NCBI GenBank assembly: GCA_030706145.1 | Contig: JAUZPB010000024.1 | Span: 1-47,627 of the forward strand | Length of the DNA stretch: 47,627 bases | Source of the DNA: Bacteroidota bacterium | Lineage (GTDB): Bacteria; Bacteroidota; Ignavibacteria; Ignavibacteriales; SURF-24 | Reading direction: 5' to 3' | Shown: positions 30,896 to 36,984 of the stretch, piece by piece | How positions within the stretch are numbered: the stretch's first letter is position 1 | Layout of the letters: the number at the start of each line of letters is the position of its first letter | Program-made: the position numbers and the translations under genes | The notes under the pieces: model-generated | Told to the model about the DNA's origin: nothing | The model's database searches: none | The model's input: only the letters and a program-made list of their open reading frames with translations

Positions 30896-31588
30896 ATGGG
30901 ATCAGAAAATAGATTAAAAGAGGCTGATAGAATCGAAAGAAGAGGCTTTTTAAAGAAAATAGGAGCCATTGCAACTTTAGGATCAGTAGCTTCGCTTTTA
31001 GGATCACAGAAATCCAGTGCAGCAGAAAACAAATGGAACAGTGCAGATTCATTCTCACCTTCGGATCTAAATGTATCGATGTCTGCAGGAGACACGCCCT
31101 TTTTGGGGGAAATAGCAATTGTAGCCTTTAACTTTGCGCCTAAAAATTGGGCTCTTTGCAATGGGCAGCTTTTACCAATAAACCAAAATATGGCACTATT
31201 TTCACTTCTTGGGACGACATATGGTGGTGATGGAAGAGTAAATTTTGCTTTGCCTAATCTTCGCGGCAGGTCATTTATTCATTCTGGAAGTTATTACACT
31301 TTAGGCTCGCAGGGTGGAGAAAGAACTCATACATTAACTACTTCTGAAATGCCTGCGCATGTGCACAGTTTTGGAACTTCCAGGTATGGTACTTCTGACA
31401 GTCCTGTTGGAATGGTTCCTGCAAGGCATCCCTCCGGAATAAACATATATAAAGGTGGAGTAAATTCAGCTATGGCTGCACAGAACATTATTAATCAGGG
31501 AGGATCGCAGCCTCATGAGAACATGCCGCCATATCTTGTACTTAATTTTATAATTGCTCTGTCCGGAATTTTTCCTAGTCAATCCTGA
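30896..31588 (+). CDS. Tat-exported phage tail collar-domain protein 3
   Basis: 230 residues. The Tat-like signal is DRIERRGFLKKIGAIATLG followed by SVASLLGSQKSSAAE, then a short linker and the collar domain (about 67-230): FAPKNWALCNGQLLPI, YGGDGRVNFALPNLRGRS, AHVHS (H155, H157) and GGSQPHENMPPYLVLNFIIALSGIFPSQS. GGAG precedes the ATG. It follows gene 2 after 36 bases, and the T9SS adhesin starts 37 bases after its stop, so all four genes look co-transcribed. Sequence divergence from genes 1 and 2 indicates an old triplication, not a recent duplication. Confidence 0.87.
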   Translation: MGSENRLKEADRIERRGFLKKIGAIATLGSVASLLGSQKSSAAENKWNSADSFSPSDLNVSMSAGDTPFLGEIAIVAFNFAPKNWALCNGQLLPINQNMALFSLLGTTYGGDGRVNFALPNLRGRSFIHSGSYYTLGSQGGERTHTLTTSEMPAHVHSFGTSRYGTSDSPVGMVPARHPSGINIYKGGVNSAMAAQNIINQGGSQPHENMPPYLVLNFIIALSGIFPSQS

Positions 31589-31625
31589 CACACAGAGCCA
31601 CTTAAGTTTGAATTGGAATAACAAA

Positions 31626-34600
31626 ATGAAAAAAACTTTCCCGTATTCTAGTTTTGTCCAGAAGATCTCTTTATGCATTTTATTTCTTATCGTATCAAAT
31701 TCAATTTACGCACAGAAGATCTACTGGATAGATTATTCTCATACTACTCCAAGGCTAATAAGAGTTCATCCCGACGGATCTAATTACAGAAGCATGAGTT
31801 TGACTTCGAAGACAACTCCGCAAGGAATGGTACTAAACAGCACGTCTGGTAATCTCTTGTGGAATGAACTTATTGCAAGCTATTCAAGTATAAACAGGAC
31901 ATCTATTAGTCTTCAGGGAGCCATAGATTCGGTAGCATATGGGCTTTCTTTCTGCAGAGGTATGGCAATCGACCAGACTAACGGAAAGTTATACTGGATT
32001 TCGAGTGAAGCAAACAACAATAAAATATATACTTCAGAGCTTGATGGATCAAACCAAAGAATAGTTAAGTCATTTGGAAGCGGAACATTTAATCTTAGAG
32101 ACATAGCCATTAATATATCGGCGCAAATGCTCTATGTTACAGATTATGGGCAAGGAAAGGTAATAAAAGTTGCCATCTCTGATGGCACTACAACTGATCT
32201 AATAACAGGCTTAAGTGGTTTAGGGCCCACAGGAATTGCCATAGACGTCCAGCACAGTAAACTATACTGGACGGAAATAAATAACGGAAAGATAAGACGC
32301 TGTGACCTGACAGGAGCTCTTATAGAAGATATTTTTACAAACCGGGACCGCCCACAGTCGATTACAATAAATAACACTTATAATACGGTCTACTGGACAG
32401 AAGCAGGAAACATAAGTCACAAAGTTTACACTGCTAATCTTAATAGTTCAGGTAATATAGATAATAGTTCATCGAAAGCAATAACAATAAGTGGAATATC
32501 AATAACAAATCCCGGCACAATAACAACAGGCAGTAATCAGCCTCCTGTTATGGCAAACTTCACTGCTACAGGATCTGAAGATGCTTCATCAATCACAATA
32601 AATGCAAGTCAGATGACATATAGTGATGCCGACGGAGACATTCTTCAGCAGATAAAGATAATTTCATTACCATCAGGCGGCACACTTAAATACAATGGCA
32701 GTAATGTTACTGCCGGGCAGATAATTTCATATTCAGGTTTAGGAAATTTTACATTTATTCCGGAAGCTAATACCTTTGGTAACTATACTTTTCAATATCA
32801 AGGGACTGATGGATCAGACTATTCTTCTCCAGCTACTGTAACAATAACAATTTCTCCAGTTGCAGATACACCTATAATAAGTAATGCAGAGACCAATGAG
32901 GATATACAAACGACAAGCGGTCTGGTCATTTCGAGAAATCCTGCAGATGGAGCTGAAGTAACACACTTTAAGATAAACAACATTACAAACGGCAGACTAT
33001 ATCAAAATGATGGAATAACTGAGATAGTAAATGGAACATTCATAACATTTGCGCAGGGAAATGCAGGGCTTAAGTTCACACCGGCTTCAAATTTTTCGGG
33101 GACTGCAAGTTTCACAATAAATGCATCAACTTCTGCAAGCGATGACGGACTTGGCGGAAGTCAGGTAACAGCCACAATAACAGTAAACTCAGTTAATGAT
33201 CAACCAACTTTAGATGCAATCACTTATCCTGTAATAGCTTATGATGGCATTAGTGATCAAACAATTTTACTTAGCGGAATTACTGCAGGTGGAAATGAAA
33301 ACCAGTCTCTTACTATCACAGCTACTTCAGATAACACTGAGATCCTTGCAAATCCAGCAGTTAACTATACCAGTCCAAATTCAGTTGCGACTTTAAGTAT
33401 TTCTCCCTCATCCGGCAAAACAGGTACAGCAGTAATAACAATAAGAGTAACAGATAACGGGACACCTGCACAGTCAATTGAAAGAACCTGTCAGGTTATT
33501 GTAAAGAAAGTACCTGGTAATGCCCTGGTATTTAACGGTACAGACCAGTATGCTGAAGTTCCATTTTCGGCTGCTCTTAATACTTCAGCCTTTACAATTG
33601 AATTCTGGGCAAAGGTAAACGGCGGAGCTGGTACAAACAGGTCAGCCTTAAGCTCACAGGGATATTTAACTGGTGTAGGCTTTAGTGCTTCGGATATAAA
33701 TCAGTGGAATTTCAGCCTTGGTAATGGAACCAGCTTTGAAAGTTTAGCAAATGGCAATGCTGAAACAGGCAAATGGGCACACGTTGCAGGTACATATAAC
33801 GGCAGTGAAATGAAACTTTATGTAAATGGGGATCTAAAAGGGACAAAATCATTTACAGCTTATCAGATGAATACTTCTCTTCCATTAAGGTTAGGAGCTT
33901 CGAATAAAGCAAATGGAGAAGCAGAAAAGTTCTTTAACGGAGCAATTGACGAAGTAAGAATTTGGAATACAGCACTTACACAGACCGATATTCAGAATAA
34001 CATGCACAATGTAATTAGTCCTTCTGCAGCCGGACTGGTTGCATATTACAGATTTGAGCACTCAGGTGGAAATCAGCTTAATGATCTAGCAGGAAACAGA
34101 AATGCCACACTGATAAACATGAATGAAAGCAATTGGATTGACAGTTATGCAATGCTATTACCGCAGGCAACAGGAATAACGGAAGTAGCAGGCAATAGTT
34201 TTACTGTAAACTGGACTGCACCTACAAAGGGACTTGCACCTACAGGATATTTCCTGGATGTAGATGACAACAGTGATTTTTCTTCTCCTGTTGCAGGTTT
34301 TAACAACCTTAGTGTTGGTAACGTTACCTCATACAGAATAGATGGACTCCCTAGTGGATCGATATATTACTGCAGAGTCTCAGCCTACAGAGATGCAACT
34401 ATAGGACAGAGCATTTACTCAAATGTTGTTTCACTTGATAGTCCTCTTCCGGTTGAGCTAATCGCATTTAATAATGAAGTCAAAAGAAACAATGTGGAGT
34501 TAAAGTGGAGGACTGCTACAGAGACAAACAATCATGGCTTTGAAATCGAGCGCAGAATAAATGATAAGACTGGAACAAATTCTGAATGGATCAAAGTTGG

Positions 34601-35042
34601 TTTTGTAAACGGAAGTGGGAACAGCAATTCACCAAAGGACTACCAATTTACAGATAAGAATATTAAGCCTGGCAAATACGCATATAGGTTAAAGCAACTG
34701 GATAATGATGGAAAGTATTCCTACTTATCTGAACTTCAGGCTGAAGTAAAATATGAAATGAATAATTATTCATTGATGCAGAATTATCCAAATCCTTTTA
34801 ATCCATCGACAACTATTTCATATACACTGCTTAGTGACAGTAAGGTAAAGCTTTCAGTTTACAATATGCTTGGGCAGGAAGTAGCTATACTTAGCCAGGG
34901 AATTCAGCAGGCAGGATATTATGAAGCTCCATGGAATGCCGGTGAATTGGCTTCGGGAATTTATATATATGTTCTGGAATCAAGTTCACTAGATGGAAAG
35001 GGCAATTTCAAAGCTGTGCAGAAGATGCTTCTACTTAAATAG
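31626..35042 (+). CDS. Large T9SS-secreted protein: YWTD propeller, cadherin/Ig-like, LamG, FN3
   Basis: 1138 residues from ATG 31626, where a clean signal peptide begins (MKKTFPYSSFVQKISLCILF..., cleavage near SIYA); an upstream in-frame extension overlaps the previous gene and is rejected. Order: LDL-receptor-type YWTD beta-propeller (about 30-300; KIYWIDYSHTTPRLIRV, KLYWTEINNGKIRRCDL), cadherin- or Ig-like repeats (about 305-640; YSDADGDILQQIKI, SDADG-type calcium sites), LamG/concanavalin-like jellyroll (about 640-840; WAKVNGGAGTNRSALSSQG, DEVRIWNTALTQTDIQ), FN3 (about 850-930), a PVELIAFNNEVKRNNVELKWRT module, and the T9SS type A sorting domain from about 1045 (QNYPNPFNPSTTISYTL to KMLLLK). 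Probably an adhesin or surface scaffold. Ends before the carboxypeptidase-leader hairpin. Confidence 0.87.
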   Translation: MKKTFPYSSFVQKISLCILFLIVSNSIYAQKIYWIDYSHTTPRLIRVHPDGSNYRSMSLTSKTTPQGMVLNSTSGNLLWNELIASYSSINRTSISLQGAIDSVAYGLSFCRGMAIDQTNGKLYWISSEANNNKIYTSELDGSNQRIVKSFGSGTFNLRDIAINISAQMLYVTDYGQGKVIKVAISDGTTTDLITGLSGLGPTGIAIDVQHSKLYWTEINNGKIRRCDLTGALIEDIFTNRDRPQSITINNTYNTVYWTEAGNISHKVYTANLNSSGNIDNSSSKAITISGISITNPGTITTGSNQPPVMANFTATGSEDASSITINASQMTYSDADGDILQQIKIISLPSGGTLKYNGSNVTAGQIISYSGLGNFTFIPEANTFGNYTFQYQGTDGSDYSSPATVTITISPVADTPIISNAETNEDIQTTSGLVISRNPADGAEVTHFKINNITNGRLYQNDGITEIVNGTFITFAQGNAGLKFTPASNFSGTASFTINASTSASDDGLGGSQVTATITVNSVNDQPTLDAITYPVIAYDGISDQTILLSGITAGGNENQSLTITATSDNTEILANPAVNYTSPNSVATLSISPSSGKTGTAVITIRVTDNGTPAQSIERTCQVIVKKVPGNALVFNGTDQYAEVPFSAALNTSAFTIEFWAKVNGGAGTNRSALSSQGYLTGVGFSASDINQWNFSLGNGTSFESLANGNAETGKWAHVAGTYNGSEMKLYVNGDLKGTKSFTAYQMNTSLPLRLGASNKANGEAEKFFNGAIDEVRIWNTALTQTDIQNNMHNVISPSAAGLVAYYRFEHSGGNQLNDLAGNRNATLINMNESNWIDSYAMLLPQATGITEVAGNSFTVNWTAPTKGLAPTGYFLDVDDNSDFSSPVAGFNNLSVGNVTSYRIDGLPSGSIYYCRVSAYRDATIGQSIYSNVVSLDSPLPVELIAFNNEVKRNNVELKWRTATETNNHGFEIERRINDKTGTNSEWIKVGFVNGSGNSNSPKDYQFTDKNIKPGKYAYRLKQLDNDGKYSYLSELQAEVKYEMNNYSLMQNYPNPFNPSTTISYTLLSDSKVKLSVYNMLGQEVAILSQGIQQAGYYEAPWNAGELASGIYIYVLESSSLDGKGNFKAVQKMLLLK

Positions 35043-35096
35043 TATCCATATAAAAAGCATATCTACTTTTTTTAGTGAGAATAAAAATATTATATA

Positions 35097-35145
35097 CTTC
35101 CCGATTTATTATATTTACATCAAAAAAATATGATAAATCGGGAGG
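35097..35145 (+). promoter_or_regulatory. 20-bp leader hairpin sequestering the Shine-Dalgarno of the M14 gene
   Basis: Positions 35097-35116 pair with 35126-35145 over 20 consecutive positions, with two G-U wobbles (U35098-G35144 and U35110-G35132) and a 9-base loop. The right arm ends in GGGAGG, so the entire ribosome site of the TTG-initiated carboxypeptidase gene (TTG at 35152) is in the stem. A temperature-, ligand- or protein-responsive translation switch, or a processing site, is the natural reading; it could also be a terminator for the upstream gene with no T-run. Confidence 0.7.
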
Positions 35146-35151
35146 ACTATT

Positions 35152-36984
35152 TTGAAATTTTTTCTGCGGACATTTTTTTTAGTTGTTTTCTCTTCTTGTA
35201 TATTCTCACAAGTACGTTTTGATGCAAATTTTGAAAGCGGAAATCTGGAATCAGTTTCTACTACGGATTCTGTCACGTATTTAGTTAAAACCAGAGAAGA
35301 TATAGGCGGAAGATGGTTTTATTTCAAGATGAGCGGAATAAGAAACAAATTCATAAGAGTAAAGGTTATAAACAGCGATGTAACCCAGGCTATGTACTCA
35401 TATGACAATCAAAGTTTCCAAAGATTTTCTGCACTTGAAAGTCCACAGTTAAACACATTTGAAAAGACCTACACAAATGATTCAGTTTTTGTTTCCTATT
35501 ACACTCCCTATTCACTAAGCTATTTAAATAAAAGAATATCCAGCTGGTCTTCAAGTCCATTTTTTTCAATTGACACTATAGGTTATACGAAAAGGAATCT
35601 CCCTTTGTATGAGATAAAGATAACTGACAGATCGGTTGCTGATTCATTAAAAGAACATATATGGATCCATGCCAGGACGCATCCGGGAGAGACCACTTCA
35701 TCGTGGCACTTTGACGGAATTATGAAGACACTTTTAAGTAATGATGAAGCAATAAATTATTATTTAAAAAACCTTGTATTTCACTTAGTTCCATTTACTA
35801 ATCCCGATGGTGTATATTTTGGGCGTTCAAGGACAAATGTTGACGGTATAGACCTTGAGTCAAACTGGAATGAAGCTGACTCTTTGACAAGCAAAGAAGT
35901 ACTGCTATTAAAGCAAAAGATAAAATCAGTAAATGCCATTAAGACAATAAAAGTATTTTTAAACCTTCATTCACAGGCCTCGCAGTTTTGTACATTCTGG
36001 ATACATACTGCCTCATCTACATCGTCCTCATTTTACAGAAAAGAGCTGCAGTTCTCAAATATTAATATTTCTGATAATCCATATTTTAAGTTCAACGATT
36101 TCAGTTATTCTAATTTATCTTCAACTTTTCCTGAAGGCTGGCAGTGGAAGAACTGGTCAGATAAGACAATGGCTCTTACATATGAGACTCCTTACGATGT
36201 TTATTCAACAGGATTAACTGTAGACAGTGCAAGTCTGGCAAAGCTTGGAGAGAGAACCATATATTCAATTGCTGAGTATCTGGATTTATCTCACCCGAAA
36301 AGGATGATACTGGATAATTCGCAGATAAGTTCCACCTGGACTGTAGACAGTTCGGGATATGAATTCTTCGGACGAAATTTTATGTATGCCTCACCAAACA
36401 GCGGGAAAGGCAGTGCAGATTTTTCTACTGGAATAGTTCAAAAGGGTAAATATGATATTTATGGATGGTGGCCCTCAAATTCTATTTTAGCAGACAATAC
36501 AAAAATTACATTAAAAGGAGGCGGAACAGTTTCAGAATCTATAGTAAATCAAAAGTCTAATGGTGCAAAGTGGAATTATCTTGGCTCGCTTTCACTTGGG
36601 AGCAGCGGGGAGATTGTAATTTCGGTAAACAGCAATGCAAGCAATTTTGTTGCAGCAGATGCATTCAGAGTAATTTATTCAGGACTTCCGGTTAATGTTG
36701 AAAACCAGGTTACTATTGCAAAAGATTTTCAGCTCTACCAGAACTACCCTAATCCTTTTAATTCGCAGACAATAATAAAATATCAGCTACAGGAGTCATC
36801 TAACATTAAACTTTTGGTATATAATTCATTAGGTCAGATCATTACAACTTTAGTAGATGAAGTCAGACCCAAAGGCAGATATGAAATTTCATTTGATGGG
36901 AAAAATCTTTCGAGCGGTGTTTATTACATTCAACTTTCTTCTGGCAATAAAATGGAAACCAGATCGATGTTACTTCTGAAATAA
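35152..36984 (+). CDS. T9SS-secreted M14-family zinc carboxypeptidase
   Basis: 610 residues from TTG 35152, set by GGGAGG six bases upstream. Signal peptide to about residue 20 (SSCIFSQ). Residues about 21-125 form a beta-sandwich like the pre-catalytic domain of cytosolic carboxypeptidases (GGRWFYFKMSGIRNKFIRV). The M14 catalytic domain (about 128-375) has zinc ligands H177 and E180 in ARTHPGE, H273 in FLNLHSQ and catalytic E345 in LTYETPYD; NPDG and the R/N pair of substrate binding are seen in TNPDGVYFGRSRTNVDG. About 385-510 is a golvesin-like beta domain, followed by the T9SS sorting domain from about 525 (QNYPNPFNSQTIIKYQL to SMLLLK). It likely trims peptides outside the cell. Confidence 0.88.
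   Translation: MKFFLRTFFLVVFSSCIFSQVRFDANFESGNLESVSTTDSVTYLVKTREDIGGRWFYFKMSGIRNKFIRVKVINSDVTQAMYSYDNQSFQRFSALESPQLNTFEKTYTNDSVFVSYYTPYSLSYLNKRISSWSSSPFFSIDTIGYTKRNLPLYEIKITDRSVADSLKEHIWIHARTHPGETTSSWHFDGIMKTLLSNDEAINYYLKNLVFHLVPFTNPDGVYFGRSRTNVDGIDLESNWNEADSLTSKEVLLLKQKIKSVNAIKTIKVFLNLHSQASQFCTFWIHTASSTSSSFYRKELQFSNINISDNPYFKFNDFSYSNLSSTFPEGWQWKNWSDKTMALTYETPYDVYSTGLTVDSASLAKLGERTIYSIAEYLDLSHPKRMILDNSQISSTWTVDSSGYEFFGRNFMYASPNSGKGSADFSTGIVQKGKYDIYGWWPSNSILADNTKITLKGGGTVSESIVNQKSNGAKWNYLGSLSLGSSGEIVISVNSNASNFVAADAFRVIYSGLPVNVENQVTIAKDFQLYQNYPNPFNSQTIIKYQLQESSNIKLLVYNSLGQIITTLVDEVRPKGRYEISFDGKNLSSGVYYIQLSSGNKMETRSMLLLK

Follow-up and report, generated by a model that had tools for sequence, protein, structure and literature searches.

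Why would a strong ribosome-binding site be buried in a long hairpin directly before the gene it serves? This question is raised by a stem that precedes a carboxypeptidase gene in a stretch of 47,627 nucleotides (the window) from the genome of an Ignavibacteriales bacterium, and the stem could represent a block on translation, the 3′ end of the preceding gene, or an inverted repeat with little function of its own. We addressed this question by computing the fold and the cost of opening the ribosome-binding site, and by comparing both with other gene starts of the same genome and with orthologous leaders from the order.

Results

A stable hairpin covers the Shine-Dalgarno site

In the initial annotation, two arms of 20 bases were described as pairing fully, with two G-U pairs and a 9-base loop, and the right arm was said to contain a complete GGGAGG site. 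The fold confirmed both statements: 20 of 20 positions in the hairpin at 35097–35145 were paired, two of them as G-U, and the Shine-Dalgarno (SD) site made up the last six bases of the right arm (Table 1). A spacer of six bases separates the SD from the TTG at 35152–35154, and the annotated end at 35151 takes in this spacer. The energy computation that had been proposed for the leader gave a minimum free energy (MFE) of −24.6 kcal/mol for 35090–35170, relative to −9.5 ± 2.5 kcal/mol for 200 dinucleotide shuffles, none of which was as good (z −6.05); the stem alone accounted for about −24 kcal/mol, with a z of about −6. In the full-length leader, the SD was computed to be 99.6% paired at 37 °C. 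Two marks of SD-sequestering hairpins, an SD within a stable stem and a stability above chance, are both present here, and we conclude that the hairpin is real, is unusually stable, and covers the ribosome-binding site of the secreted carboxypeptidase gene.

Table 1. Coordinates of the hairpin, the elements near it, and the flanking genes.
Feature	Position	Strand	Sequence or description	Basis
Left arm	35097–35116	+	CTTCCCGATTTATTATATTT	fold, z −6.05
Loop, 9 nt	35117–35125	+	ACATCAAAA	sequence and fold
Right arm, SD at its end	35126–35145	+	AAATATGATAAATCGGGAGG	sequence and fold
Shine-Dalgarno site	35140–35145	+	GGGAGG, wholly within the stem	sequence; SD use shown for the genome
Top-scoring −7 promoter-like match in the leader	35108–35119	+	ATTATATTTACA, one mismatch to TAnnTTTG	
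Possible leader ORF	35075–35155	+	26 codons, GTG start, no SD, VRIKILYTSRFIIFTSKKYDKSGGLF	translation
Carboxypeptidase	35152–36984	+	M14 zinc carboxypeptidase, TTG start, 610 aa, signal peptide, T9SS C-terminal domain	Pfam, orthologues
Upstream gene	31554–35042	+	large secreted protein with LamG, Ig/cadherin-like, and T9SS tail domains	ORF list, Pfam

Pfam searches of the carboxypeptidase returned PF00246 (E 3e-17), Golvesin_C, and the Por_Secre_tail domain of type IX secretion (T9SS), and its closest named relatives come from Ignavibacteriales and Melioribacteraceae MAGs. The annotated TTG start is supported as the predicted initiation codon, because no other ATG, GTG, or TTG lies between the signal peptide and the stop codon that precedes it in frame, and because the orthologues start at or near the position aligned with it. 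The upstream gene is co-directional, and its stop codon lies 54 nt before the hairpin, so a message reading through from this gene would carry both arms. No strong terminator was seen between the upstream gene and the stem. Just past the upstream stop there is a run, ACTTTTTTTAG, at 35063–35074, which is possibly a weak terminator of the upstream gene; the stem preceding it is weak (−5.8 kcal/mol for 35020–35076).

Occlusion of this site is exceptional within the genome

For comparison within the same genome, we sampled 1.68 Mb of the 5.3-Mb assembly and obtained 1176 gene starts with a simple purpose-made start caller, so the counts that follow are approximate. Opening the SD region of the carboxypeptidase was computed to cost 20.9 kcal/mol, the highest value among the 1176 starts, whose median was 3.2 kcal/mol and whose 99.5th percentile was 12.9 kcal/mol. 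When the upstream 53 nt were shuffled 2000 times with the SD kept in place, the highest opening cost reached 17.4 kcal/mol, still below the observed 20.9. These values uphold the earlier suggestion that the ribosome site is masked. Across the sample, extreme occlusion was slightly over-represented, with five starts costing 14 kcal/mol or more to open against 0.5 expected, and moderate occlusion was at expectation, with 39 starts at 8 kcal/mol or more against 39.3 expected.

The second most occluded start (L048:10225, minus strand, contig C17 of assembly G000; 18.0 kcal/mol) is that of a flippase-like gene within a run of polysaccharide-type genes; a stem covers its GGGGGGA site, 59 nt past the preceding gene. 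Two further starts of the genome, L174:13567 and L101:800, have SDs in stable stems (opening costs of 14.1 and 13.5 kcal/mol, respectively), and both genes have a strong SD and likely signal peptides.

The initial annotation had regarded a strong SD coupled to a TTG start as surprising, on the grounds that such strong sites are often missing from genes of the phylum. The combination proved unremarkable here: with approximate starts, a strong SD precedes 195 of the 1176 genes (17%), 104 genes (about 9%) have a TTG start, and the two features coincide in 19. The wider statement about the phylum holds for Flavobacterium, which lacks SD sites (PMC6847099), and fails for this genome, where GGAGG is enriched ∼24-fold before starts. 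The 98%-complete assembly G000 yielded no 16S rRNA gene from which the anti-SD sequence could be read.

The hairpin is confined to one genome

No second copy of the hairpin was found in its own genome, and the motif was absent from the 163 other genomes of the order (164 including its own). A repeat-family hairpin or the end of a mobile element was rejected on this basis. Rfam 15 gave zero matches in the window at the gathering score, and a known riboswitch or leader family was likewise set aside.

We then compared orthologous leaders in two overlapping sets, one of 20 and one order-wide set of 28, which together comprise 37 distinct genes (43–64% identity). The hairpin was absent from all 37 leaders. 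Opening costs were 0.1 to 5.7 kcal/mol in the set of 20, and in the order-wide 28, the median was 2.7 and the maximum 11.1 kcal/mol. Homologous leaders that keep the site and lose the pairing had been named from the outset as grounds for doubting the hairpin, and this doubt is partly justified, since those of the 37 leaders that keep an SD-like site are among the ones without the hairpin. The nearest orthologues are 64% identical over the catalytic part, which leaves the leaders unalignable, so the absence of the hairpin shows lineage specificity only; with the stem in no orthologous leader, a covariation test is not possible. The genus consists of this genome only and the family of five genomes. 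By sequence comparison, then, the hairpin appears lineage specific, being found in one genome only.

A candidate promoter element lies inside the hairpin

The TTG/TAnnTTTG pattern is the promoter type of Bacteroidota (PMC6847099). In the upstream regions of this genome, TAnnTTTG occurred 146 times in sense and 84 times in antisense orientation, and the two-box pattern TTG-N18–21-TAnnTTT was found 31 times in sense and five in antisense when followed by G, and 31 times and six when followed by A. Over the whole leader, the best −7 match scored 8.3 bits and the runner-up 0.7; a score of 8.3 bits corresponds to the 81st percentile of sense and the 91st percentile of antisense upstream regions. 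A −33 TTG was absent upstream of this match, and with both boxes scored, the site fell at the 31st percentile of sense and the 45th percentile of antisense regions. The match would put the start of the transcript at ∼35121–35124, within the loop, the place that the initial annotation had named as its second ground for doubt. Since this match overlaps the left arm and the loop, transcription of the gene itself could yield a message that lacks the arm, and most of the computed structure is lost from such a message: with a start at 35122, the MFE rose from −26.0 to −5.6 kcal/mol. In messages lacking the left arm, the SD still had a mean pairing probability of ∼0.75, in weak local structure. The orthologous leaders gave no promoter signal (TAnnTTTG four times in sense and four in antisense). 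We regard a promoter inside the hairpin as a lead suggested by the sequence and not as proof.

Discussion

Silencing of read-through messages from the upstream gene is the most likely role of this hairpin. Specifically, we propose, tentatively and as possible rather than probable, that it acts in cis to block translation of messages that carry both arms, and that the gene is read from shorter messages in which the left arm is missing, an insulation of the kind known from gene e of phage T4. In a message with both arms, notably one running on from the gene that ends at 35042, as we infer happens, the SD would be locked in the 20-bp stem and there would be little translation. Expression would come from messages without the left arm, most simply through a promoter presumed to work within the hairpin, with its −7 element spanning part of the left arm and the loop (TTATATTTAC) and its start in the loop. 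The purpose of such an arrangement would be insulation.

The closest documented case is T4 gene e, whose promoter is located within the 5′ strand of the stem that blocks its SD and whose long transcripts give ∼100-fold lower lysozyme synthesis; in gene e, soc, 49, and I-TevI alike, leader hairpins hide the SD in long transcripts (PMC3014915). The T4 leaders and the present one share a local stem over the SD, and in gene e a promoter element sits in the DNA of the 5′ strand. Unlike T4, the present gene is a chromosomal bacterial one, its candidate promoter is a −7 match with no −33 box, the arrangement is predicted from sequence, and there is no sequence relation. When transposase mRNA of IS10 or IS50 originates from outside promoters, it folds back and hides its ribosome site. 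The likeness to the hairpin described here is that read-through messages would fold to hide the ribosome site, whereas here there is no mobile element, only one copy exists, and the structure stands before a secreted peptidase gene; our literature search on IS10-type fold-back inhibition gave no matching paper. In Flavobacterium johnsoniae, structure in the initiation region tunes translation, and this case of the Bacteroidota resembles ours in that structure near the start lowers translation, but the effect there is graded and acts on SD-less mRNAs, in contrast to one extreme stem over a real SD (PMC6847099). The hairpin is thus of an SD-blocking kind that is already known, and it is exceptional, single, and unconserved.

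A serious rival, although we consider it unlikely, is that the hairpin belongs to the 3′ end of the upstream gene, as a terminator or mRNA stabilizer, and that the next SD was embedded in it by chance. Strong hairpins do mark gene ends in this genome (their density per 10 kb is 9.9, 3.1, and 1.35 in convergent, co-directional, and divergent gaps, respectively, against 0.1 within genes), and a hairpin start 54 nt after the stop lies narrowly within the range that takes in 90% of post-stop hairpins (90th percentile, 55.8). Against this, among the listed hairpins of −16 kcal/mol or better in co-directional gaps, it alone lies 29 nt or less from the start that follows, and its U-tail (ACTATTTTG) is poor, with a T-score of 0.97 relative to a median of 1.90, which is at the 27th percentile of post-stop hairpins and is typical of tails on the wrong strand. 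A simple terminator scan did not call the hairpin, and a terminator at this place would itself require the carboxypeptidase promoter to lie inside the hairpin. The tail that follows the hairpin on the minus strand (35081–35145; TATATAATATTTTTA) resembles that of a terminator, with a T-score of 1.92, and there is no minus-strand gene on that side to end. It seems rather improbable that the stem is a regulated switch, with expression of the gene waiting for a protein, a small RNA, or translation of the leader ORF to open it. A stem of this strength would need some such opener, and the leader ORF at 35075–35155 stays open through the hairpin to a TGA that overlaps the TTG start (TTGA) and could couple translation. 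However, this ORF has no SD and comparable frames precede 57 of the 1176 genes, so it may be a product of chance, and a switch finds no counterpart in Rfam, in any other copy in the genome or the order, or in the orthologues.

The confinement of the hairpin to one genome, with none in any orthologue examined, would also suit a quasi-palindrome that was perfected by template switching during replication and has little or no selected function, leaving the gene weakly expressed; A+T-rich sequence such as this may be prone to inverted repeats. Within 1.35 Mb of genes, no more than 13 hairpins reach −18 kcal/mol, which suggests that long hairpins are rarely kept unless they serve a function, and this together with the first rank of the SD overlap among 1176 starts makes a functionless repeat quite improbable. 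An SD within a stem is also the usual layout of an RNA thermometer, in which heat would open the stem and turn translation on. The stem here is free of bulges and mismatches, and even at high temperature the SD is computed to stay paired (0.96 at 60 °C, 0.85 at 80 °C), with no melting predicted in the mesophilic range; we rejected a thermometer as highly improbable.

The silencing of read-through messages could extend to a few chromosomal genes of this free-living bacterium, each with a phage-like promoter in the stem, an SD hidden in read-through messages, and a start of its own inside the stem. The excess of starts with opening costs of at least 14 kcal/mol (five among the 1176, 0.5 expected) is the basis for this extension, which we consider decidedly doubtful.

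As it stands, this is one unconserved hairpin of mainly local interest, and that interest is modest unless the transcript start proves to be inside the stem. If the proposed block of read-through messages is true, it would represent an SD-based block on translation in a lineage close to the Bacteroidota, a group in which SD sites are largely missing from the better-studied members, and would demonstrate how neighboring genes for secreted proteins can be insulated from one another without a terminator.
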